A DNA stretch of 43,627 nucleotides, taken from a virus. Both the position numbers and the translations under genes were made by a program. Below the pieces are notes generated by a model. It saw nothing but the letters and a program-made list of their open reading frames with translations, had not been told where the DNA came from and ran no database searches. This document shows, piece after piece, positions 9,771-40,967 of the stretch (the first letter of the stretch is position 1; each line of letters begins with the position of its first letter). The DNA lies in the IMG/VR virus record IMGVR_UViG_3300009103_001286, positions 1-43,627 of that record, one strand, 5' to 3'.

Positions 9771-9962
9771 ATGAGAGATAAAATACATTTAAATCTACAT
9801 TCTGCTAATTTGGTTAAGAAAGCCAAAGAGAAAATCTTATTCAGAACGCAACGTCAACCCGTTGAAGCAGGAGCTCATGGCACTTTGGAATATACTATCA
9901 AAAAAGGTGAAAATACAGGCAGGATCGCCAAACTTAAAAAATTAAAGAAACTTACCGACTAA
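9771..9962 (+). CDS. Small basic protein
   Basis: 63 residues from the ATG at 9771; the open frame extends upstream to 9693 but the extra part is Cys-rich and unlike the rest. Sequence RDKIHLNLHSANLVKKAKEK, then TLEYTIKKGENTGRIAKLKK. It converges with hemH and overlaps its 3' end by 21 bases. Unknown function. Confidence 0.45.
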   Translation: MRDKIHLNLHSANLVKKAKEKILFRTQRQPVEAGAHGTLEYTIKKGENTGRIAKLKKLKKLTD

Positions 9963-10940
9963 TTTAGCAATTAAATCTATATGTGATGTGCTAGTGTTCA
10001 GACAATGAACAAGTTTGAATTCATGTCCACCTTTACTTCTAAAACTTTCTTGCCCTTCATTACCTATTTCATTAATAGTTTCTAAACAATCTGCAGAGAA
10101 TCCTGGACAAGCTATCAATAATTTATGTACATCATTTATAGGTAAATTTATTAGAGTAGTATCTAAAGCAGGATCAAACCAATCTTTCTTTCTACCAAGT
10201 CTACTTTGAAATACAGTTTCAATTGGTATGTTATAAGGTTTTAATTGTTCTCTAATAAGTCTAGTAGTTTTAAGACATTGACAATAATATGGATCGCCCC
10301 TTTCCAAAGTTACTCTTGGTACGTTATGATAACTTAAAAGAATCTGGTCAGGTTTCCACTCTAACCTCTCTAGTTCACGTTCTATCGAACCAGATATTGC
10401 TTTTATGTAATCATCATCGTCAAAGTATCTTGGAACAATTTGTACTGCTGGTTGCCATCTCATATCTTTTAAAACTCTAAACACTTCATCACTTACACTT
10501 CCGGTACAAGATGAACTATACTGTGGGAACAAAGGTAGTACGACTATTGTTTCACAACCTTTATCTTTTAAACTTTTTATTCCTTGTTCTATGCTAGGAC
10601 CACCATGACGTAATGCCCATTCAACATCAACACCAACCATATCTAATCTTTTAGCCAATAGTTCTGCTTGTTTTTTAGTTGTTATTCTTAACGGTGAGCC
10701 TTCAGCAGTCCAAATCTTTTTATATTCTTTTTTAATTTTATGTGGTCTAAAATTTAAAATAAAAACATTTAATATTAACCACCATAATACTTTGTTAAGA
10801 TCAACAACTCTTGGATCACTAAGAAAGTCTTTAAGGAACTTCCTCATATCTCTCCATCGTAGTCCGCTTGGCGTTCCTAAATTAACTAACAGAACTCCTC
10901 TTCGTCCATGTGGTATTTTTGGATGGTCGGGTTTAATCAT
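9942..10940 (-). CDS. hemH: Ferrochelatase
   Basis: 332 residues, full length. Inserts Fe(II) into protoporphyrin IX, the last step of protoheme synthesis. Recognised by RGVLLVNLGTPSG at the N-terminus, VLPLFPQYSSS, the catalytic His205 in LLSYHNVP (usually HGLP, so Gly-to-Asn here), VFQSRLGRKKD, and Glu287 and Glu291 in ADCLETINEIG. Cytosolic or loosely membrane-bound. The start overlaps the stop of a 2OG oxygenase gene by 8 bases, so it belongs to the leftward operon that begins near 14.5 kb. Confidence 0.95.
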   Translation of the reverse strand: MIKPDHPKIPHGRRGVLLVNLGTPSGLRWRDMRKFLKDFLSDPRVVDLNKVLWWLILNVFILNFRPHKIKKEYKKIWTAEGSPLRITTKKQAELLAKRLDMVGVDVEWALRHGGPSIEQGIKSLKDKGCETIVVLPLFPQYSSSCTGSVSDEVFRVLKDMRWQPAVQIVPRYFDDDDYIKAISGSIERELERLEWKPDQILLSYHNVPRVTLERGDPYYCQCLKTTRLIREQLKPYNIPIETVFQSRLGRKKDWFDPALDTTLINLPINDVHKLLIACPGFSADCLETINEIGNEGQESFRSKGGHEFKLVHCLNTSTSHIDLIAKLVGKFL

Positions 10941-18497: not shown

Positions 18498-19063
18498 TAA
18501 CTTAAATTATCCTTTTCTGCAACGTAATTGTATGTTATAGCTATTCTAGTATCGTGTTTTTGTGGAGCAGAACTTGAATGAAAATATTTCCCGTCAAAAT
18601 TAAACCAAACGTTACCAGTTGGCGTACATTTTTCTTTAATTGTGTAATTGTCTGAATCAGTTGTTTCATTGTAGATTATTGTGTCTCCATCGCTATGTGT
18701 AGGATAATACATACCAACAGTATGTGGCTGTGGACACGTTTCAGGATTATCTCTATGAGCTGGATGTATAATCTCTTCAGGTACCCTTGTAAACATTCCT
18801 ACTCTAATTCTATATAAATCTTTTAATATTAAATTTTGTCTGTCTAATGCTTGTAATAAAATAGGAAGTGTTATATCAAATAAGTTTGATACAGAACCTT
18901 TATCTTTACTGTATATCAAATGAGCAAAGCCACCAGCATATGGTTTTTTAGGATCATTAAAATTTGCAACACTAGAACTACGGAACCAAGGAGTTTCGTT
19001 TCCGTCTAACTTCATCTTAATAAAATTCCATTGATTTAATCCTAATAAATTACTGTGAATCAT
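18497..19063 (-). CDS. 2OG-Fe(II) oxygenase-like protein
   Basis: 188 residues. IIHPAHRDNPE provides an H-x-x-D-like pair, then VGMYYPTHSDGDTIIYNE, GNVWFNFDGKYFHSSSAP (distal His) and TRIAITYNYVAE (Arg). Resembles the small phage 2OG proteins with GD-type spacing. It overlaps the 3' end of hemE by 14 bases and is co-transcribed with it. Confidence 0.65.
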   Translation of the reverse strand: MIHSNLLGLNQWNFIKMKLDGNETPWFRSSSVANFNDPKKPYAGGFAHLIYSKDKGSVSNLFDITLPILLQALDRQNLILKDLYRIRVGMFTRVPEEIIHPAHRDNPETCPQPHTVGMYYPTHSDGDTIIYNETTDSDNYTIKEKCTPTGNVWFNFDGKYFHSSSAPQKHDTRIAITYNYVAEKDNLS

Positions 19064-20144
19064 TTTTCTTTTTCTTTTTTGCTTCTAATTTTCTTTTTCT
19101 AATAAATTCTCTATTTTGTTTGACTACATCTACTAATACCTCTAAAGACTTTGGATCTGTAGTTTTTAATATGCCTGAACCCAAATTAAACACGTAAGGA
19201 TGTTTTTCAAACTGTCTAATATAATACAATGCTTTTCTTATTATGTCAATCTTTGCTACTGACGGATCATTAGTTAATATTTCCGGATCCATCCCTCCTT
19301 GAATTGCATATTGTGGTATATGCTTTACTGCCCATTTTGGATCTATTTCAGTGCTAATACTAACACAATCTATACCTGTCCAATGGCAAAACTCTTTTAC
19401 ATCTTTACCAATACCTTTTGGGTAACCAATTATTGGAACGTTAGGATGTAATTTTTTAAACTCTTCTACTATTTTAGCAATCGGATTATAACACCAATCA
19501 ATAATAAAATCTTCTCCTAATTCTCCAGCCCAACTATCAAACAATTGTACAACATCACATCCTGCTTTAACTTGTTCTGACAAGTGCATAACAATTATCT
19601 TTGTTAATTTGTCTAATCTAAAAATAGCATCAAATTGATCAATGTCCGATGGTTTAACTGTATAGGTTATATTATATTTGGGATTAGGATTGTTCTTAGG
19701 CCCTGACATCATATATCTTAATATGGTCCATGGTGCTCCAGCAAAACCTATTAATGATTTTTGTGGATCTAATTTCATTCTAACTAATTCAATTGCTTTA
19801 TAAACCGGTTTAAGTTTTTCTTTTATTACATTTAAATCAGTTTGCCAAATTTGAGGATCTAATTCTCCTAGTTTAGGTGCAGGATCAAATGTTAGGGGTT
19901 GTCCCATAGCCCAAGGTATAACCAAAATGTCTGAAAAAATTATCGCGGCATCAAGATCATATCTTTCTATTGGTTGAAGTGTAATTGTTTTGGCAATGTC
20001 TGGAGTAAGAACCATATGCATGAACCCTTTACTTTTATTTTTTATTTCCATATATTCTGGCAAATATCTTCCAGCTTGGCGCATAAACCAAATCGGGAGT
20101 AGTCCTGTTTCGTGACCCATTATAGTTTTTTGAAGTATGTTCAT
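19050..20144 (-). CDS. hemE: Uroporphyrinogen decarboxylase
   Basis: 364 residues from the ATG at 20144; the open frame reaches 20174 only through a GTG. Removes four carboxyl groups from uroporphyrinogen III to give coproporphyrinogen III. Family signatures: LPIWFMRQAGRYLPEY (Arg22), FSDILVIPWAMGQ, GFAGAPWTILRYM, QLFDSWAGELGE, QGGMDPEIL. One oddity: the near-invariant His of FNLGHG is Ser323 here (FNLGSGI). A Lys-rich tail of about 15 residues follows the domain. First gene of the leftward 2OG block down to 16.6 kb. Confidence 0.95.
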   Translation of the reverse strand: MNILQKTIMGHETGLLPIWFMRQAGRYLPEYMEIKNKSKGFMHMVLTPDIAKTITLQPIERYDLDAAIIFSDILVIPWAMGQPLTFDPAPKLGELDPQIWQTDLNVIKEKLKPVYKAIELVRMKLDPQKSLIGFAGAPWTILRYMMSGPKNNPNPKYNITYTVKPSDIDQFDAIFRLDKLTKIIVMHLSEQVKAGCDVVQLFDSWAGELGEDFIIDWCYNPIAKIVEEFKKLHPNVPIIGYPKGIGKDVKEFCHWTGIDCVSISTEIDPKWAVKHIPQYAIQGGMDPEILTNDPSVAKIDIIRKALYYIRQFEKHPYVFNLGSGILKTTDPKSLEVLVDVVKQNREFIRKRKLEAKKKKKNDSQ

Positions 20145-20189
20145 CGGTTTATTGTAATTAGTCTTATTAAACACATATATAATTAGAGT

Positions 20190-20365: not shown

Positions 20366-20394
20366 TTGACAAAATTCTTAATATGTAATAAACT
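20366..20394 (+). promoter_or_regulatory. Promoter of the structured RNA
   Basis: TTGACA (20366-20371), 17 bases, TAAACT (20389-20394). Transcription would begin near 20401, just before the first long helix of the RNA described next. Confidence 0.5.
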
Positions 20395-20400
20395 AATAGT

Positions 20401-20627
20401 GCTTAAAGAAGTAATAGTCGGGTGGTGTAATCATTCGATAGCACGTCAGGATCTCCAATCCTGAAATCTCGGTTAATCCGAGCCTGACTATGAAAATTCG
20501 AGCAAACCGTGAGAGTGGTGGAAATGTGATTAGACACACCGATTTCAGAGATCGGCACCCGTAGCCGGGTTTTATGAGTAAAATCTCATCTCTCACATCC
20601 GGGGGTGCGAGACGTGGCACCCCCTTT
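20401..20627 (+). ncRNA. Candidate structured non-coding RNA of unknown family
   Basis: About 225 bases without an open frame but full of helices. A nine-pair helix (20414-20422 with 20483-20491) encloses hairpins CAGGAT/ATCCTG (20447-20463) and CTCGG/CCGAG (20468-20482). A second domain is closed by GTGAGAG/CTCTCAC (20509-20515 with 20590-20596) and holds CCGAT/ATCGG, ACCCG-TAGC-CGGGT and ATGAG/CTCAT hairpins. It ends in a GC-rich hairpin (20601-20624). I could not match it to tmRNA, RNase P, SRP, 6S or a known riboswitch. It may instead be a long leader of the gene at 20649. Confidence 0.6.
20601..20624 (+). promoter_or_regulatory. GC hairpin with loop GAGACGTG (copy 1)
   Basis: GGGGGTGC-GAGACGTG-GCACCCCC, eight perfect pairs, followed by TTTAATT. 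It could terminate the RNA above or act as a leader hairpin for the gene at 20649. A second copy with the same loop is at 20799. Confidence 0.6.
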
Positions 20628-20648: not shown

Positions 20649-20759
20649 ATGGCTAAGAAAAGAAAAAAAGCAAAAGCTAAAGCTAAAAAGAAAGTTAAAA
20701 AAGCTAAAGCTAAAGCAAGAAAAATAAAAAGAAAAAGTAAAAGAAAAAGTCGAAGATAA
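20649..20759 (+). CDS. Tiny Lys/Ala-rich, histone-like basic protein
   Basis: 36 residues, about two thirds Lys or Arg: AKKRKKAKAKAKKKVKKAKA and a serine-spotted tail (KRKSKRKSRR). AAGGAG sits eight bases before the ATG. The composition is that of the tails of histone H1-like bacterial proteins or of a protamine-like DNA condenser. The hairpin at 20601 lies in its leader. Confidence 0.6.
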   Translation: MAKKRKKAKAKAKKKVKKAKAKARKIKRKSKRKSRR

Positions 20760-20792: not shown

Positions 20793-20798
20793 ATATGA

Positions 20799-20820
20799 GG
20801 GGTACGAGACGTGGTGCCCC
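20799..20820 (+). promoter_or_regulatory. GC hairpin with loop GAGACGTG (copy 2)
   Basis: GGGGTAC-GAGACGTG-GTGCCCC, seven pairs. Compared with copy 1 a G-C pair has become A-U and a U-A pair U-G, while the loop is unchanged: compensatory change that supports an RNA structure. It lies 14 bases before the ATG at 20834. Confidence 0.6.
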
Positions 20821-20833
20821 TTACCACCAATTT

Positions 20834-21079
20834 ATGAAAAAGAAAAAGAAGAAATATAATCATAAAAAATTAATTGAAATAATAAAAGACAGTCATGAAG
20901 AACTACCAAGAAGAGATTGGCAAGACATCGCTGACTGTATCCATTCAGACCAGGTTGACCATGCAAGTGTAATGTGGTATATGAAGCATAAAAAGTTTTA
21001 TAAATGGTATGCTAAAAAGTATCTTACACCCTCGGCCCACTTCAGAAAGCCAAAAAACGGCGTTGTTCGCTGGCGATAA
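20834..21079 (+). CDS. Small basic protein
   Basis: 81 residues from the ATG at 20834; the open frame extends upstream through the hairpin but that part would be translated from the leader. Begins MKKKKKKYNHKKLIEIIKD, then RRDWQDIADCIHSDQVDHAS and an aromatic/basic end. Family unknown. Confidence 0.55.
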   Translation: MKKKKKKYNHKKLIEIIKDSHEELPRRDWQDIADCIHSDQVDHASVMWYMKHKKFYKWYAKKYLTPSAHFRKPKNGVVRWR

Positions 21080-21120: not shown

Positions 21121-21339
21121 ATGGTTAAGACTTTGAAAAAGGAATATGGAAAAGGTGGCTCTAAAAGACACGAGATTTTAGATAAAGCAGTCAAATATTT
21201 GTTAAATCCTCGCTTTGGTACGCAAAATCATAAACACATTTTTTTAATAGAAGAAGTAGGTTTAACAGAAACTGAATATCTAGAGTGTTTAAATAAAGCT
21301 ACCAATGGAGGTTTTGTTTGGGACACGATCAAAAAATAA
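21121..21339 (+). CDS. Hypothetical protein
   Basis: 72 residues, unrecognised: KEYGKGGSKRHEILDKAVKY then LTETEYLECLNKATNGG, suggesting a small helical DNA-binding-like domain. Leaderless start. Followed after five bases by pcm. Confidence 0.55.
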   Translation: MVKTLKKEYGKGGSKRHEILDKAVKYLLNPRFGTQNHKHIFLIEEVGLTETEYLECLNKATNGGFVWDTIKK

Positions 21340-21344
21340 GTCGA

Positions 21345-21962
21345 ATGGTTGACATCATCCAAGCTCATGCTCTGAGCTATCCGGGTGGTAGGCATATTGA
21401 TAAAAGAGTTATATGGGCAATGACTCAGGTGCCTAGACATTTATTTGTAAAGCACTTTCCATACGAAGATAGACCTGTACCAATCGGACACGAACAAACT
21501 ATCTCTCAACCTTTCATTGTTGCTTATATGAGTGATGTTATTGGCTTACAACCATTGCATAAAGTATTAGAAATAGGAACAGGCTCAGGATACCAAGCGG
21601 CTATACTATCTCATTTAGCACATGAAGTTTATTCAGTAGAAAGAATTCCAGAGTTAACTGCAAGTGCAAAAAAATTATTTGAACATTTAGAGTATGACAA
21701 TATTAAAACAAAAATAAGCGATGGCTATGATGGATGGTCTGAAAACGCACCTTATGATAGAATTATTGTGACAGCAATGGCTAATGAAGTTCCTGTTGAA
21801 TTAACAAAACAATTAGTAGATGGGGGAAAAATGATTATTCCTGTTAATGGATCATTATTATTAATCACTAAAAAGAAAGAGTTAGCAGGTGTTCCAATAA
21901 TAGAGGAACAAACTTTAATAGGAGTAAGGTTCGTACCGCTTGTGAAAGGCATAAATGCATAA
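21345..21962 (+). CDS. pcm: Protein-L-isoaspartate O-methyltransferase
   Basis: 205 residues from the ATG at 21345 (upstream TTG 21318 lies inside the previous gene). Repairs isoaspartyl damage in proteins using S-adenosylmethionine. Signatures: VPRHLFVKHFP, the substrate loop GHEQTISQPFIVAYM, motif I KVLEIGTGSGYQAAIL, SVERIPEL, and VTAMANEVP. Slightly shorter than the typical enzyme. The tRNA-Asp gene begins two bases after its stop. Confidence 0.9.
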   Translation: MVDIIQAHALSYPGGRHIDKRVIWAMTQVPRHLFVKHFPYEDRPVPIGHEQTISQPFIVAYMSDVIGLQPLHKVLEIGTGSGYQAAILSHLAHEVYSVERIPELTASAKKLFEHLEYDNIKTKISDGYDGWSENAPYDRIIVTAMANEVPVELTKQLVDGGKMIIPVNGSLLLITKKKELAGVPIIEEQTLIGVRFVPLVKGINA

Positions 21963-22055: not shown

Positions 22056-22307
22056 ATGAAATGGATAATAATTTTGTTTTTTATTTTTATATTTGGTTTG
22101 CCTATGTACGCCTATTATTCAGTAAGCAGTGGACATTTCTTTCAAGTTAACGCAGGATGTAAAGAGTGTACAGTAGAAGCAGTTGAAAAAATAAAGGCAA
22201 AATTAAAAGCAGAAAATAAAATGCAAGTAGAAAAAAATAAAAAAGCACTTCATGATGGAACTTATAAACCAAAACAGTGGGCCGGGTGGCCATGGGATAG
22301 AGAATAA
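22056..22307 (+). CDS. Small membrane-anchored protein
   Basis: 83 residues starting [20 protein letters not shown], a signal or anchor segment; then CKEC (residues 36-39), a Lys-rich helix ([18 protein letters not shown]) and an aromatic end [15 protein letters not shown] ribosome site. TAATG coupling to sufB. The MKW opening recalls the 6.6-8.6 kb family but the Cys pattern differs (CxxC). Confidence 0.55.
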
Positions 22308-23746
22308 TGAAACAAGACAAAATACTTAAAGAACGTCTTAAAAAGAAATACGACGCTGGGTTTACTACTAATGTTGAATCCATAACGTTACCCCCTGGGC
22401 TTAATGAAGGAGTTATCAAACAAATTTCAAAAATTAAAAAAGAACCAAAATGGTTACTTGAATTTAGATTAAAAGCATATGAAAGATGGAAATCACTTAA
22501 ACAACCTGACTGGGGTAATCTTGAAATAGAACCAATAGACTATCAAGCCATATCATATTATTCAGCACCTAAAAAAGGACCTGCAAGTTATGATGAAGTA
22601 GATCCTGAAATTAAAAAAGACTTTGAAAAACTTGGCATACCATTAGAGGAAAGAGCCAAACTTGCAGGCGTGGCTGTTGATGCCGTGTTTGATTCTGTAT
22701 CTGTTGCAACTACGTTTAAAGATAAACTGGCAAAGTTAGGAATTATATTTTGTCCTTTTTCAGATGCAGTACAAAATCATCCAGACCTTGTAAAAAAATA
22801 TATGGGATCAGTTATACCTATAAGTGATCATTCATTTGCCGCTTTAAATTCTGCTGTCTTTACAGATGGTTCTTTTGTTTATGTTCCTAAAGGAGTTAAA
22901 TGTCCTATGGAACTATCAACATACTTTAGAATAAACACGGCTAACACAGGACAATTTGAAAGAACTTTAATAATAGCAGATGAAGGAAGTTATGTAAGTT
23001 ACCTTGAAGGATGTACTGCACCAATGAGAGACGAAAGTCAATTACACGCCGCCAATGTAGAACTTGTAGCACTTGATAATGCAGAAATAAAATACTCAAC
23101 AATACAAAATTGGTATCCTGGAGATCCTGTTACAGGTAAAGGTGGTATCTATAATTTTGTAACTAAACGTGGAAAATGTAAAGGAAAGAATTCTAAAATT
23201 ACTTGGACACAATTTGAAACTGGATCACGTATTACTTGGAAGTATCCATCGTGCTTATTAATGGGAGATAACTCCGTGGGAGAATTTTATTCTGTTGCAC
23301 TAACAAATGGTAGACAACAAGCAGATACAGGAACTAAAATGATCCACTTAGGTAAAAATACAAAAAGTACAATTATATCAAAAGGAATATCTGCAGGACA
23401 TTCTAAAAACACATACAGAGGACTTGTAAGGATTTCTAAAAATGCAAGTAATTCAAAAAACTTTACACAATGTGATTCATTAATGTTAGGTAGTCATTGT
23501 TCTGCTAGTACAATACCTTATATTGAAAATAAAAATTCATCAAGTCATTGTAATCACGAAGCAACAACATCTAAATTAGATGATGATCAATTATTTTATG
23601 TAATGTCTAGAGGATTAAAAGATGAAGATGCTAGAAATTTACTTGTATCAGGATTCTGCAAAGAAGTATTTCAAAAACTACCAATGGAGTTTGCCGTGGA
23701 GGCTAATAAACTATTAGAAGTTAGTATGGAAGGAGCAATAGGATAA
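22307..23746 (+). CDS. sufB: Fe-S cluster assembly scaffold SufB
   Basis: 479 residues, full length. SufB is the scaffold subunit of the SufBCD complex that builds [4Fe-4S] clusters. Recognisable parts: the N-terminal [28 protein letters not shown]-type segment ([20 protein letters not shown]), [67 protein letters not shown] and [16 protein letters not shown]. The partners SufC and SufD are absent nearby. One base of overlap with nadA implies coupled translation. A carried host-type metabolic gene. Confidence 0.95.
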
Positions 23747-24714
23747 TGCAAGACTTAATGTATAAAAAAGTTTCTAAAGTTATTCCTGAAATGGAATGGC
23801 AATTTCATTCTCCTTATGTTGAAGAGATTAATAAATTAAAAAAAGAAAAGAATGCAGTTATTCTTGCACACAATTATATGACACCAGAAATATATCATTG
23901 TGTTGCTGACATAGTAGGAGATTCTTTAAAATTAGCACAAGAATCACAAAAAACAAAAGCAGACACCATTATAATGTGTGGAGTAAACTTCATGGCAGAT
24001 ACAGCCAAAATAATGAACCCAAGTAAAACTGTTTTAATACCAGACCCACAGGCAGGATGTTCACTAGCAGAATCTATAACAGGCAAAGATGTTCGTTTAT
24101 TAAAAGAAAGGTATCCTGGTGTACCTGTTGTAACTTATGTAAACACATCTGCCGATGTTAAAGCCGAAACAGATATATGTTGTACATCAGGTAATGCAGT
24201 AGAAATTATAGAATCATTAGGAGTTGATAAAGTTATTTTTCTACCTGATGAGTACCTTGCAAAAAATGTAGCTAAACAAACAAATGTAAAAATTATTACT
24301 TGGCATGGTACTTGTATAGTTCATGAAAGATTTACAGCAAAAGAAATTAGAGAATATAGAAAAGACAATCCTGGAATAACTATTCTTGCCCATCCAGAAT
24401 GTACACCAGAAGTAGTTGCTGAAGTAGACTTTACAGGTTCTACATCTAAAATGAGTAACTACGTTAAAGAAAAACAACCTAACAAAGTATTAATGGTTAC
24501 TGAATGTTCTATGAGTGATAACGTTTCTGTAGAGAATCCTAATGTAGAATTTGTTAGACCATGCAATTTGTGTCCGCATATGAAACGTATTAGTCTTGTA
24601 AAAGTGTTAGAATCATTAATGTTAAATATTCATGAAGTAAAAATTGACCAAGAAGTTATAGAAAAAGCTAGACTTCCAATAGAAAGGATGTTACAATATG
24701 GACAACAATTATAG
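23746..24714 (+). CDS. nadA: Quinolinate synthase A
   Basis: 322 residues, full length. Condenses iminoaspartate with dihydroxyacetone phosphate to quinolinate in de novo NAD synthesis, using a [4Fe-4S] cluster. Cluster cysteines are visible at [11 protein letters not shown] (Cys78), [11 protein letters not shown] and [10 protein letters not shown]; also [28 protein letters not shown] and [10 protein letters not shown]. NadB and NadC are not in the window. Placed directly after sufB, which could supply its cluster. Confidence 0.95.
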
Positions 24715-27746: not shown

Positions 27747-27932
27747 TTATTTGTAATAGTCTAAATCTTTTGGCTTCTTACCAAAAATCTTTTGTACAAA
27801 ATCAACAACATATCCAGTCCATTGCAAAACCAATGCCCATATTATTACACTTAAAAATAATATTACGCATATAGGAATCCATATCATATAGAATAAAATA
27901 TCTGCTAGAGTTTCTATTATATTTTTTACCAT
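27747..27932 (-). CDS. Small membrane protein
   Basis: 61 residues with one long or two short transmembrane segments (IWIPICVILFLSVIIWALVL) and a basic tail (KIFGKKPKDLDYYK). Overlaps the end of hemF by seven bases and is last in the leftward operon, two bases from the convergent oxidoreductase gene. Confidence 0.5.
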   Translation of the reverse strand: MVKNIIETLADILFYMIWIPICVILFLSVIIWALVLQWTGYVVDFVQKIFGKKPKDLDYYK

Positions 27933-28756
27933 TTGACCTCCGGTGGTAATGACATTAAAATTGCGTCCATATTGCCTCCTGTTTGTAGTCCAAACTTTGT
28001 TCCCCGATCATACATTAAATTAAATTCTACGTATCTACCTCTCTTAAACAACTGAACTTCTTTATCTTCTTTAGTATATTTAAATCTATTATTCAAGAAA
28101 ACAATATGACTCATTATATTTACAAAAGTTTTACCTACATCTTTCACAAATGCCATATCTTTTTTAAAGTCTTTAAAATGATAATCAAAAAATAAACCAC
28201 CTATACCACGAGGTTCTTTTCTGTGTGGCAAATAAAAGTATTCATCGCACCACTCAGAGAATTTAGAATAATACTCTTCATCGTGTTTATTACACATTAA
28301 TTCGAGTTGGGTATGGTACCAATCTTTTTGTTCATCATTTTGAATACAAGGAGTAACATCCATTCCTCCCCCAAACCAACACTTTGTAGTACAAATAAAT
28401 CTAGTATTAAAATGCATTGCAGGTACTTTAGGATTTTTCATATGTAAAACAACCGATATACCTGACGCCCAATAACTAGGATCTTTATCCGCCCCTGGTA
28501 TTTGTTTTCTCATAAGGTCATTAAACTTTCCTGTAACTCTTGAATAGTTTACTGTTCCTTTTTCAAAAACATTTCCTTTAATAACTCTGTGTTCTTGATA
28601 CCATCCTTTTGATTGTGAAGTATTATGCTTAACCATCTTGGCAGGGTTCTTTGAATCAAATTCTTTTTCTAAATCTTCTAGATGTGTGCAAACAGTATTT
28701 TGTAATGATTGAAACCAAGTAGTAGCTGTCTTTTGATACGATTTAATTGACGTCAT
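27926..28756 (-). CDS. hemF: Oxygen-dependent coproporphyrinogen III oxidase
   Basis: 276 residues. Oxidatively decarboxylates coproporphyrinogen III to protoporphyrinogen IX with O2. Characteristic blocks: GISVVLHMKNPKVPAMHFNT followed by RFICTTKCWFGGGMDVTPC, HRKEPRGIGGLFFDYHF, and RGRYVEFNLMYDRGTKFGLQ with TGGNMDAILMSLPP at the C-terminus. Length near the usual 280-300. The start overlaps the upstream lipoprotein gene by 14 bases. Confidence 0.95.
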   Translation of the reverse strand: MTSIKSYQKTATTWFQSLQNTVCTHLEDLEKEFDSKNPAKMVKHNTSQSKGWYQEHRVIKGNVFEKGTVNYSRVTGKFNDLMRKQIPGADKDPSYWASGISVVLHMKNPKVPAMHFNTRFICTTKCWFGGGMDVTPCIQNDEQKDWYHTQLELMCNKHDEEYYSKFSEWCDEYFYLPHRKEPRGIGGLFFDYHFKDFKKDMAFVKDVGKTFVNIMSHIVFLNNRFKYTKEDKEVQLFKRGRYVEFNLMYDRGTKFGLQTGGNMDAILMSLPPEVKW

Positions 28757-30120: not shown

Positions 30121-30801
30121 TTAACCATAAATTATTTTTGTAAGTTTTTTAGCACAATCCTTCATACCATTAGTATGCCATACAATATTCTTTTTAGGTA
30201 CAGCAGTATATAGTTCTATCTTTTTTAATTCTGGATCGCGAAGTTCTTTATCACTATCTAAACATAATGCGTCTGGATGTATGCCTAACTTCATTGCTTC
30301 TTTAGTTACGTGTTGTACAGGTTTAGTTTTTAGTTCTCCTGCTTTTTCTAAATAAGGTACTGGTGCATACAAAATAATCTTTACATTTTCACGCATACGC
30401 ATTTCTCGTATTGATTCCAACACAACCAAGTTTTCCATATCACCTACATTACCACCTATAACTGTAATTGTTTTATTAGCATCTGTGTCTACTATCCATT
30501 GTCTTATTGCTTCAGTGACGTGTGGTGTAACTTGTACCGTAGCACCTAGGTAATCTCCTTTACGTTCTTTAACAATTATATCATCCATTATTTGTCCAAT
30601 GGTTGTATAGTTTTTTGTTTTGGGTTTTAGAACATTTAAACAAGGATCAAGATACTTGTAGGAAGAACTTCCTGATATATTTTTTTGGATTTCTTTGGCG
30701 AGACCGACTTTATCTATCGCAGAATGTACGCCACTTACAACTATGCAATGGGTTTTATTTTTTATCCTTGTCGTCTTTTTTAACTTCTTCAAAGTCTGCA
30801 T
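30121..30801 (-). CDS. Degenerate CTP-synthase amidoligase-like protein
   Basis: 226 residues. The middle matches the synthetase domain of CTP synthase: [53 protein letters not shown] and [20 protein letters not shown], then [12 protein letters not shown]. But the P-loop (normally GGVVSxLGKG) reads [13 protein letters not shown], the Mg-binding DDGAETDLDLG stretch is missing, and there is no glutaminase domain. It is thus unlikely to make CTP; a nucleotide-sensing, decoy or filament-capping role is possible. The start lies 47 bases inside dnaK. Confidence 0.75.
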
Positions 30802-38259: not shown

Positions 38260-39468
38260 ATGCTCCCAATAGAACCATTTAAAAGAGTTATAGACACATT
38301 AAAAGCGAACGGCAACTACAGAGTCTTCAATGACGTATTGCGAGAAGCTGGACAATATCCTAATACAATTTGGTATGGAAAACATAACATCAAAAAAGTA
38401 ATTAATTGGTGTTCAAATGATTATTTAGGTATGGGCCAACATAAAGTTGTAATGGACGCAATGAGAACAGCTTTAGAAACAACAGGTGCCGGAAGTGGTG
38501 GCACAAGAAACATATCAGGTACTTCACATTATCACGTGGCTTTAGAAATGGAGTTAGCAAGACTTCATAAAAAGCCATCTTCACTTTTATATTCATCGGC
38601 CTTTGTAGCAAATGAATGGACTTTAATTTCACTTAAAAAAATTATTCCAGATATAGAATTTGTTAGTGATAGTGAAAACCATGCTTCTATAATTATGGGA
38701 ATTAAAAATAGTGGAGCAACAAAACATATATTTGAACATAACAATTTAGAAAGTCTAGAAGAAAAATTAAAATTAGTTAAAGGTACACCTTGCGTTATAT
38801 TTGAATCTGTTTATAGCATGGATGGTGATGTAGGATACATTAAAGAAATTTGTGACATCTCTGACAAATATAATGCAATAACATTTATAGATGAAGTTCA
38901 TGCAGTAGGATTATATGGAGACGAAGGAGCCGGGTTTTTAGAAAAACAAGGCTTACAAGACAGAGTTGATATTGTTGCTGGAGGACTAGGTAAAGCATTT
39001 GGAGTTGTAGGAGGTTATGTCGCTTCTGATGCCACAGTAATAGATGCAATTAGATCCGTGTCTGCAGGATTTATTTTTACTACGAGTATGAGTCCAGTAA
39101 TATGTGCAGGTGCTTTGGCTTCTGTAAAATTTCTTAGAGACGAAGGCGGAAGAGATTTAAGACATAAACATCAACTAGCATCACAACAACTTAGAATGTT
39201 ATTAACAGAAGATCATATAGATATAGGAACATCGACATCACATTTGATTCCTGTTATGGTCAGGGATCCAGTTAAATGTAAAAAAATGAGTGATATGTTA
39301 TTACAGGATCATGACATTTATGTACAAGCAATAAACTCGCCAACAGTAAAACCTGGTACAGAACGTTTACGGTTTGCTCCTACACCTTTACATACTGAAT
39401 CTATTATATACGATTTGGTTGACAAATTAAAAATTGTTATGAAAAAAATAGAAAATGAAAAATTATAA
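38260..39468 (+). CDS. hemA: 5-Aminolevulinate synthase
   Basis: 402 residues, full length. Pyridoxal-phosphate enzyme that condenses glycine and succinyl-CoA to 5-aminolevulinate, the entry and control step of the C4 (Shemin) heme pathway. YRVFND (substrate Arg21), WCSNDYLGMGQHKVV, TGAGSGGTRNISGTSHYHV, FIDEVHAVGLYG (Asp211, His214), GGLGKAFG (Schiff-base Lys245) and GTERLRFAPTPLHT. No heme-regulatory CP motif at the N-terminus. First gene of the hemA-2OG-hemC operon. Confidence 0.97.
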   Translation: MLPIEPFKRVIDTLKANGNYRVFNDVLREAGQYPNTIWYGKHNIKKVINWCSNDYLGMGQHKVVMDAMRTALETTGAGSGGTRNISGTSHYHVALEMELARLHKKPSSLLYSSAFVANEWTLISLKKIIPDIEFVSDSENHASIIMGIKNSGATKHIFEHNNLESLEEKLKLVKGTPCVIFESVYSMDGDVGYIKEICDISDKYNAITFIDEVHAVGLYGDEGAGFLEKQGLQDRVDIVAGGLGKAFGVVGGYVASDATVIDAIRSVSAGFIFTTSMSPVICAGALASVKFLRDEGGRDLRHKHQLASQQLRMLLTEDHIDIGTSTSHLIPVMVRDPVKCKKMSDMLLQDHDIYVQAINSPTVKPGTERLRFAPTPLHTESIIYDLVDKLKIVMKKIENEKL

Positions 39469-40123
39469 AATAAGACCTTTATTTGCAATACCTTTATTTC
39501 AATCAACTGTAGATGTTTCTAAAGAAGAAAAGGATTATATCATTAATAATGTTGAATACAAAAGATATCCCGCCGATAATGGATTTGGTTCAACTAGCAA
39601 ATTTTTATTAAATGATGATAAAAGTCTAGCATCACTTAAAAAGAAAATAGATGATTGTGTTATAGAATATCTTACAACAATATTAAATGTAAATCCACAA
39701 TGTAATTTTCAAATGACTAATAGTTGGGCTGTAAGACATATTAAAGGTGATGAAGCAGGACAACATAATCACGCCAATGCTATGTTAAGTGGAATTTTAT
39801 ATATTCAAACTGACGAAAAGTCTGGTGATGTTTTGTTTACTAAAGAACGAAATTATTTTAACCTATTTAATGATCAAGTTATTCAAGTTCCATTTAACGA
39901 CCAAAATGATTATAACGCAGAAGGTTGGGCAGTTAGACCTAAAAACAATATGATATTACTATTCCCATCACATTTAAGACACGAAGTATATCCTAATGAA
40001 AGCGATATTGATAGATATTGTGTTGCTTTTAATCATTTCCCATTTGGTTCTTTTGGATATGACGACGGCTATAATAAAAATGTTCAGTTGGGTTTAAAAA
40101 ATACGACCCATGACCAAAGATAA
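39455..40123 (+). CDS. 2OG-Fe(II) oxygenase (PF13759-like)
   Basis: 222 residues. TNSWAVRHIKGDEAGQHNHA (H-x-H), MLSGILYIQTDEKSGDVLF, MILLFPSHLRHEVYPN (distal His) and DIDRYCVAFNHFPFGSFGYD (Arg). Paralogue of the 16623 and 17275 genes. Overlaps hemA and hemC by 14 bases each, so it is made with them. Substrate unknown. Confidence 0.8.
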   Translation: MKNYKIRPLFAIPLFQSTVDVSKEEKDYIINNVEYKRYPADNGFGSTSKFLLNDDKSLASLKKKIDDCVIEYLTTILNVNPQCNFQMTNSWAVRHIKGDEAGQHNHANAMLSGILYIQTDEKSGDVLFTKERNYFNLFNDQVIQVPFNDQNDYNAEGWAVRPKNNMILLFPSHLRHEVYPNESDIDRYCVAFNHFPFGSFGYDDGYNKNVQLGLKNTTHDQR

Positions 40124-40967
40124 AGTTATTATAGGAACTAGAGGTAGCAAGTTAGCTCTTGCCCAAGCGGAGAGTGTTCAAAAATTATTAAACACAAATT
40201 CTGAAATAAAAATAATAAAAACATCCGGCGACATTCACGAAAACAAAGCCATTGCCGACATAGGAGGCAAAGGTGTATTTTCTACACAAATTGAACAAGA
40301 GTTATTAGATTCAAAAATAGATATGGCTGTCCACAGTTTAAAAGATTTGCCAGGCATAATGACAAAAGGATTAGTTATTAGAGGTGTAATTGAAAGGAAT
40401 GATCCAAGAGATGTTTTAATAGGAAAAATTAAAAAAGGATCAAGAGTTGGAACAAGTTCTCCCAGAAGAACAGCTCAATTAAAATACAAAAGAAAAGACA
40501 TTGAAGTACTTCCTATTAGAGGTAATATAGATACTAGACTTAAAAAACTTGAAGATGGACAGTATGACGCAATAATTTTAGCAAAGGCAGGATTACAAAT
40601 GCTTGGATTAGAAAATAAAGCCGATAAGATATATGAACTTGACGAAATCCCACCTTGTGCTGGACAGGGAATCATCGCGATACAATCTAGAGAAAATGAC
40701 CATACTATTAATGCCAAAATCGCTTCAATAAATCACTTGCAAACATTTTATCAAGCAGAAGCAGAACGTTCTTTGTTAGAAGCTATTGGTGGAGATTGTC
40801 ATACGGCTTTAGGTTGTTATACCATGACATCAGCATATCATCTTTACATAACAAGTGAAATGTATGTAGATGGTAAAAAGTATACTGCATCCGGTTCTGA
40901 CAATGTTATTAATGCCAAAGAACTTGGAAATCGGATTGGCAAAGACTTATTAGAACAACTAGACTAA
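40110..40967 (+). CDS. hemC: Hydroxymethylbilane synthase
   Basis: 285 residues, a little short of the usual 300-320 because the last domain is trimmed. Polymerises four porphobilinogens to hydroxymethylbilane. IIGTRGSKLALAQAE, GGKGVFSTQIEQELLD, DMAVHSLKDLPG (catalytic Asp79), GTSSPRRTAQL, LPIRGNIDTRLKKLEDG and CAGQGIIAIQSRE are all present. The dipyrromethane-cofactor Cys is Cys230 (IGGDCHTALG). Confidence 0.95.
   Translation: MTKDKVIIGTRGSKLALAQAESVQKLLNTNSEIKIIKTSGDIHENKAIADIGGKGVFSTQIEQELLDSKIDMAVHSLKDLPGIMTKGLVIRGVIERNDPRDVLIGKIKKGSRVGTSSPRRTAQLKYKRKDIEVLPIRGNIDTRLKKLEDGQYDAIILAKAGLQMLGLENKADKIYELDEIPPCAGQGIIAIQSRENDHTINAKIASINHLQTFYQAEAERSLLEAIGGDCHTALGCYTMTSAYHLYITSEMYVDGKKYTASGSDNVINAKELGNRIGKDLLEQLD

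Follow-up and report, generated by a model that had tools for sequence, protein, structure and literature searches.

A structured viral RNA of two tandem cloverleafs, almost certainly tRNA-derived, that lack the tRNA elbow and an encoded CCA

The RNA described here, at positions 20401-20627 of the window (the whole stretch of DNA analysed, a 43.6-kb virus record that is AT-rich with 34% GC), is almost certainly tRNA-derived and consists of two cloverleafs in tandem, which would descend from one tRNA-Trp(CCA) and one tRNA-Leu(CAG). The elbow (G18G19, C56 and the canonical T-loop), the CCA and part of the identity elements have been lost from both with every stem retained, and it would be the cloverleaf shape, not translation, that is kept. 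Retention of the RNA for a non-translational role seems rather probable. Our main reading, which is tentative (probability of about 0.4), is that the RNA may act in trans as a mimic or decoy, i.e., a non-translating tRNA mimic that would occupy a tRNA-binding host factor.

Fold and boundaries of the RNA

The region folds with a minimum free energy (MFE) of -86.2 kcal/mol (z of -5.5), a stability that was equalled by 0/200 shuffles, and the structured RNA is real. The earlier note, made from the sequence alone, had described two multi-hairpin domains with long-range helices, and indeed both helices were recovered with a probability of at least 0.95 (nine pairs at 20414-20422/20483-20491 and seven at 20509-20515/20590-20596), as was the GC-rich terminal hairpin at 20601-20624. 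It was also right that long open frames are absent (a mechanical ATG frame of 24 codons spans 20490-20564, with no evident ribosome site), and that signatures of tmRNA, RNase P, SRP or 6S RNA are missing, the Rfam covariance models giving no match. Its promoter stood in part: a TTGACA-17-TAAACT match exists, but three such matches were counted against 2.8 in shuffles, so that the match alone is no evidence. The suggested switching between hairpins at 20571-20589 is unsupported because the TTTTA/TAAAA pairing has a probability of about 0.01, against 0.73-0.93 for ATGAG/CTCAT; a riboswitch or switching RNA was rejected, with no competing folds of similar weight at 20570-20589. Finally, the label of 'unknown structured RNA' was apt for a discrete RNA that matches no standard ncRNA signature, but it overlooked the tRNA-derived cloverleafs that both domains appear to form (Table 1).

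A terminator function of the 3' hairpin is doubtful, because the sequence directly 3' of it (UUUAAUUAAA) contains no more than three consecutive U and the hairpin at 20796-20823 carries the same loop, GAGACGUG. The stem of this second copy differs from the first by a G-C to A-U and a U-A to U-G change that maintain pairing, and two copies of the hairpin occurred in 0/100 shuffles, while no further hairpins of this kind were found in the related loci searched. Note that a small basic ORF lies a short way downstream of each of the two same-loop hairpins.

Table 1. Coordinates of the RNA, its parts and the neighbouring features in the window
Feature	Position	Strand	Basis or remark
Candidate sigma-70-type promoter, TTGACA-17-TAAACT	20366-20394	+	Consensus match; position the sole support
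Whole structured RNA: 5' leader, two cloverleafs, 3' hairpin	20401-20627	+	MFE, z
Cloverleaf 1, probably tRNA-Trp(CCA)-derived	20416-20490	+	RF00005, cloverleaf scan, alignment, tRNA-Trp model
Cloverleaf 2, tRNA-Leu(CAG)-derived	20509-20597	+	Cloverleaf scan, alignment, tRNA-Leu model, relaxed ARAGORN
3' hairpin, 8 pairs, loop GAGACGTG	20601-20624	+	Weak terminator candidate
Small Lys/Arg-rich ORF, 36 aa	20649-20759	+	AAGGAG-type ribosome site; potential target in cis should the RNA be a leader
Second hairpin, identical 8-nt loop GAGACGTG	20796-20823	+	
Ferrochelatase gene	9942-10940		
Uroporphyrinogen decarboxylase gene	19050-20174		
PCMT gene	21318-21962		Host-type metabolic
SufB gene	22307-23746		Host-type metabolic
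NadA gene	23746-24714		Host-type metabolic
Coproporphyrinogen oxidase gene	27926-28756		
CTP synthase N-terminal domain	30121-30801		Host-type metabolic
5-aminolevulinate synthase gene	38260-39468		
Hydroxymethylbilane synthase gene	40110-40967		

Identification and origin of the two cloverleafs

Cloverleafs were searched with a purpose-written scanner, in which stems and spacing are scored and loop sequence is ignored. This loop-blind scan found seven strong cloverleafs in the window, namely the five ARAGORN tRNAs (scores of 52-56), domain 1 (53) and domain 2 (51), the next-best score being 43; in 2.93 Mb of Markov-shuffled control, one match reached at least 46, with a score of 48. Ancestry was assessed by alignment to 140 distinct tRNAs (from related viral records and two SAR11 genomes, with some Kiloniella tRNAs) and with covariance models of tRNA-Leu (14 genes) and tRNA-Trp (7 genes), all taken from outside the window.

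The acceptor stem of cloverleaf 1 (20416-20422/20483-20489, 7 pairs, or 9 pairs at 20414-20491 with its flanks) is followed by a two-base linker, a four-pair D-like stem (arm at 20425-20444, loop AATCATTCGATA, no GG), an anticodon-like arm of 7 pairs around CTCCA (20446-20464) and a T-arm (20468-20482) with a 5-pair stem and the 5-nt loop TTAAT, from which C56 and G57 are missing. Position 73 is A, where tRNA-Trp has G73, and is followed by UGA with no encoded CCA, and about six bases of the D-loop stand where Trp tRNAs have GG. In addition, the longer anticodon stem and the 9-pair acceptor make this domain out-pair its tRNA-Trp relatives. An Infernal check against Rfam, as had been advised, was only partly positive: whole-window standard scans miss both domains owing to the lost signature of T-loop and D-loop, and domain 1 given alone passes the cut-off of the tRNA model RF00005 (34.9 bits, gathering cut-off of 29). 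Its silence on domain 1 in longer stretches is presumably due to speed filters. The best alignments, which exceeded the shuffled maxima, were mostly with tRNA-Trp(CCA), one tRNA-Met reaching about the same score, and the tRNA-Trp model gave 31.4 bits (E of 3e-7), below the five ordinary tRNAs of the window. Judged from these matches, domain 1 is surely tRNA-derived, and tRNA-Trp is its most likely source; the latter is less firm because the domain is outscored by the ordinary tRNAs on the Trp model and its alignment with one tRNA-Met is just as good. The tRNA-Gly(UCC) called by ARAGORN in mitochondrial mode was rejected because neither A1-U72 and A73 nor the top-aligning relatives suit Gly.

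Cloverleaf 2 has an acceptor of 7 pairs (20509-20515/20590-20596), a D-like arm at 20518-20537 (loop GAAATGTGATTAGA, no GG), an anticodon-like arm at 20539-20555 with the loop TTCAGAG, a long variable arm at 20557-20570 and a T-arm at 20574-20589 with a 5-pair stem and the 6-nt loop TAAAAT; A73 (20597) is followed by UCC, again with no encoded CCA. Its D-arm is of the Leu type (GUGGUGGAA...UAGACAC), with AUGUGAU in the D-loop where Leu tRNAs have UUGG. RF00005 did not report domain 2, which is the top match of the tRNA-Leu model in the whole window (44.9 bits, E of 2e-9), aligns best with tRNA-Leu and then tRNA-Ser (above the shuffled maxima), and is called tRNA-Leu(cag) by relaxed ARAGORN. 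The link to Leu is firm, owing to the model match and the alignment.

Lost and retained tRNA features

All stems (acceptor, D, anticodon and T) are perfectly paired in both domains, with zero mismatched pairs. In both, G18G19 is swapped for a longer D-loop segment and the shortened T-loop has only 5 or 6 nt (UUAAU and UAAAAU), so that C56 is gone; the insert and the gap fall in the D-loop and the T-loop, respectively, when the domains are aligned to the tRNA-Leu and tRNA-Trp models. An encoded CCA, absent from both domains, is present in 5/5 ordinary tRNAs of the window (all of which also have an intact elbow), 88/90 viral tRNAs and 47/47 SAR11 tRNAs examined. The Trp-type and Leu-type domains belong to different tRNA classes, yet they show parallel losses.

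Within 4.53 Mb of viral DNA, 86 distinct cloverleafs scored at least 49, and 80 of these carry both GG and C56, the latter in a T-loop of 7 nt. The six exceptions comprise the two domains of the window and four others: L343 and L058 look like chance matches, L422 (the same gene as in L349) keeps CCA and GG and shows a milder change, and the fourth is L136. The two domains of the window are thus the only convincing elbow-less cloverleafs among the 86 surveyed.

Other unusual tRNA genes were observed during this survey. The exception in L136 (1420-1490) is a viral tRNA-Cys-like gene with CCA, in which A19/U56 stands for G19/C56 as a compensated elbow pair. L349 carries a phage tRNA-His and a phage tRNA-Lys (619-689 and 3556-3626) with odd T-loops (ATCGTAA and ATCACTGG) and CCA kept. 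In SAR11 genomes (L294:11 and L314:15) and in L311, we noted a tRNA-Val(GAC) with the D-loop AATAGTA and the T-loop AGCRTAA, and a low-scoring tRNA-Leu-like gene with the T-loop TGCAAAT; the loops suggest that A18/G55 replaces G18/U55, with G19/C56 staying. The unusual-elbow tRNA genes of SAR11 genomes keep 7-nt T-loops and CCA. A predicted tRNA with a CAG anticodon and a short variable loop, unlike Leu tRNA, was found at L157:16329-16402 (record G039). In this 328-kb record, the tRNA matches at the two ends are identical in score and length, which suggests that it is terminally redundant and near-complete.

Homologue search and genomic setting

Covariation is the usual proof that an RNA structure is under selection. 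Searches for homologues with blastn and nhmmer in related loci and 50 whole viral records found none and returned only short chance pieces, from collections that may omit records very near the window's own. Among viral contigs, the exact Leu D-loop pattern gave zero matches, the exact hairpin-loop pattern two (in GC-rich sequence without notable fold), and the exact Trp D-loop and anticodon-loop-plus-T-loop patterns 88 and 87, respectively, with no cloverleaf. The scan using HemE and the neighbour protein at 20795-21079 as anchors gave no viral relatives, and in L081 and L083, which hold weak relatives, the stretch upstream of the ORF relative appeared by eye to contain no such RNA.

The closest cellular relatives of the SufB of the window are Pelagibacteraceae proteins (about 72% identity), and records of 242 and 328 kb are among the relatives found through a 639-aa protein; by these similarities, the source is likely a large marine phage infecting SAR11 or related bacteria. 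The haem pathway is represented by five genes on this single phage fragment (Table 1), in which ALAD was not found. A phage 5-ALA synthase has already been published (PMC11480375), and the words hemC, hemF and ferrochelatase are absent from the main text of that paper. Viral records that share SufB contain predicted permuted (two-piece type) tmRNA genes (L008:811-1185, L017:5687-6057 and L057:6552-6919) with tags of the ANRKAL/ANKKAL type; these were rejected as a match for the RNA of the window, being a different RNA.

Possible roles of the RNA

Given the fold, the descent from tRNAs, the losses shared by both domains and the stems left intact, we infer that the RNA may bind a factor that recognises tRNA and yet be neither used nor cleaved by it; such a factor could be an aminoacyl-tRNA synthetase, or a defence or toxin enzyme that cuts tRNA. 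Since the ribosome and a number of enzymes, RNase P, RNase Z and LeuRS among them, make contact with the elbow (PMC4810234), normal tRNA maturation should work poorly on both RNAs. Escape from anticodon nucleases has been proposed for phage tRNAs whose anticodon loops are altered (PMC10264068). In mycobacteria, VapC toxins cleave tRNA-Leu(CAG) behind a GG of the anticodon loop (PMC6459853) and tRNA-Trp(CCA) within its A-run (PMC6118392). Neither cut motif is intact here, with CAGA in domain 2 and CCAAU in domain 1. By this analogy, a VapC-type enzyme may be the target of the decoy, as a lead only, and no tRNA-targeting enzyme or partner was identified near the RNA. In its most specific form, which we consider doubtful, the proposal would be that of paired 'tRNA shells', i.e., two different tRNAs that both lost elbow, CCA and cleavage motifs, persist as stable cloverleafs and are produced during infection in order to tie up tRNA-binding enzymes of the host such as anticodon nucleases.

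Alternatively, the domains could be two recently disabled phage Trp and Leu tRNA genes of an array, which suffered small loop indels and the loss of CCA and are now functionless. We regard this as rather unlikely, even if tRNA numbers vary among related phage records, no relative keeps the RNA, its tRNA ancestry is clear, and the codon that domain 2 would read is rare (CUG, 8 of the 5,621 codons counted). Indeed, when related tRNAs were mutated in silico until the elbow marks were lost (random mutations assumed, up to about a hundred), all stems stayed intact in only 0.0003-0.0005 of the runs per tRNA, which makes the perfect stems of both domains improbable under decay (a chance of about 4e-4 each), although two or a few loop indels that disabled a very young pseudogene would also leave its stems perfect. 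Decay also fits poorly with like losses in two unrelated tRNA classes, with the extra pairs of domain 1 and with the stability of both domains against shuffles, which exceeds that of most tRNAs (a lower z in only 11/140 and 25/140, respectively).

The main functional rival is a role in cis, in which the RNA would be the leader of the mRNA for the basic protein at 20649-20759 and its tRNA-like folds would bind a synthetase or other tRNA-binding protein, controlling translation or processing in the manner of tRNA-like leaders. Downstream of the 3' hairpin come only three consecutive U and then a ribosome site, with the start codon 25 bases past the hairpin, and the same hairpin loop occurs again upstream of the next small basic protein, all of which would suit a leader. 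However, the downstream product is not a synthetase, and known tRNA-like leaders use less than two full cloverleafs; such a role appears unlikely.

Improbable above all are working non-canonical tRNAs in the style of animal mitochondria, to which the host would add CCA for use in translation or as amino-acid donors: elbow-less tRNAs do function in mitochondria, tRNA-Pyl lacks G18G19 and TPsiC (PMC7609411), SAR11 as a possible host group has tRNA genes with unusual elbows, and domain 2 retains A73, U33 and the long variable arm, but domain 1 has A73 against the G73 of Trp and extra pairs that squeeze its anticodon loop, CCA is not encoded, the ribosome, RNase P, RNase Z and LeuRS touch the elbow (PMC4810234), the five canonical tRNAs of the same phage retain theirs, and CUG codons are rare.

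Comparison with known systems and significance

The window pair shares the cloverleaf plan of ordinary tRNA-Trp(CCA) and tRNA-Leu(CAG); domain 1 resembles the former in A1-U72 and CUCCAA, and domain 2 the latter in its D-arm and long variable arm. Unlike these, the elbow and CCA are lost, and G73 too in domain 1. As in tRNA-Pyl and type II mitochondrial tRNAs (PMC7609411), G18G19 and TPsiC are missing, and the lengthened anticodon stem is common to these tRNAs and domain 1. In contrast, the window pair has other anticodons, D-loops that are larger and not smaller, a probable Trp/Leu ancestry and no encoded CCA, and is a phage gene in a bacterial setting. A tRNA-Pyl identity was rejected, as the window domains have neither the CUA anticodon nor the 5-nt D-loop.

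The phage tRNAs that counter tRNA-cutting defences (PMC10264068, PMC11555353) likewise concern nuclease-targeted classes and altered anticodon loops, but they are intact and replace the cut host tRNAs, whereas the window pair, without elbow and CCA, should not translate. A tRNA shape outside translation, as proposed here, is also known from the tRNA-like structures of RNA viruses and the tRNA-like modules of bacterial Y RNA (YrlA), from which the present RNA differs by two complete cloverleafs, by a DNA phage as its source and by the lack of an Rfam match to them. Y RNA/YrlA itself was rejected, with no Rfam match and no Ro/TROVE protein in the window (a fragment) or in eight related records.

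Altogether, elbow-less tRNA-derived RNAs escape ARAGORN and whole-sequence Rfam scans, and because of this blind spot viromes may contain more of them than is reported. The usual view of phage tRNAs is that they assist with codon usage or stand in for tRNAs that host defences have cut. A tRNA-shaped phage RNA without the parts needed for translation would, if true, add a third use, that of mimicry in trans, and provide a directly testable molecule.
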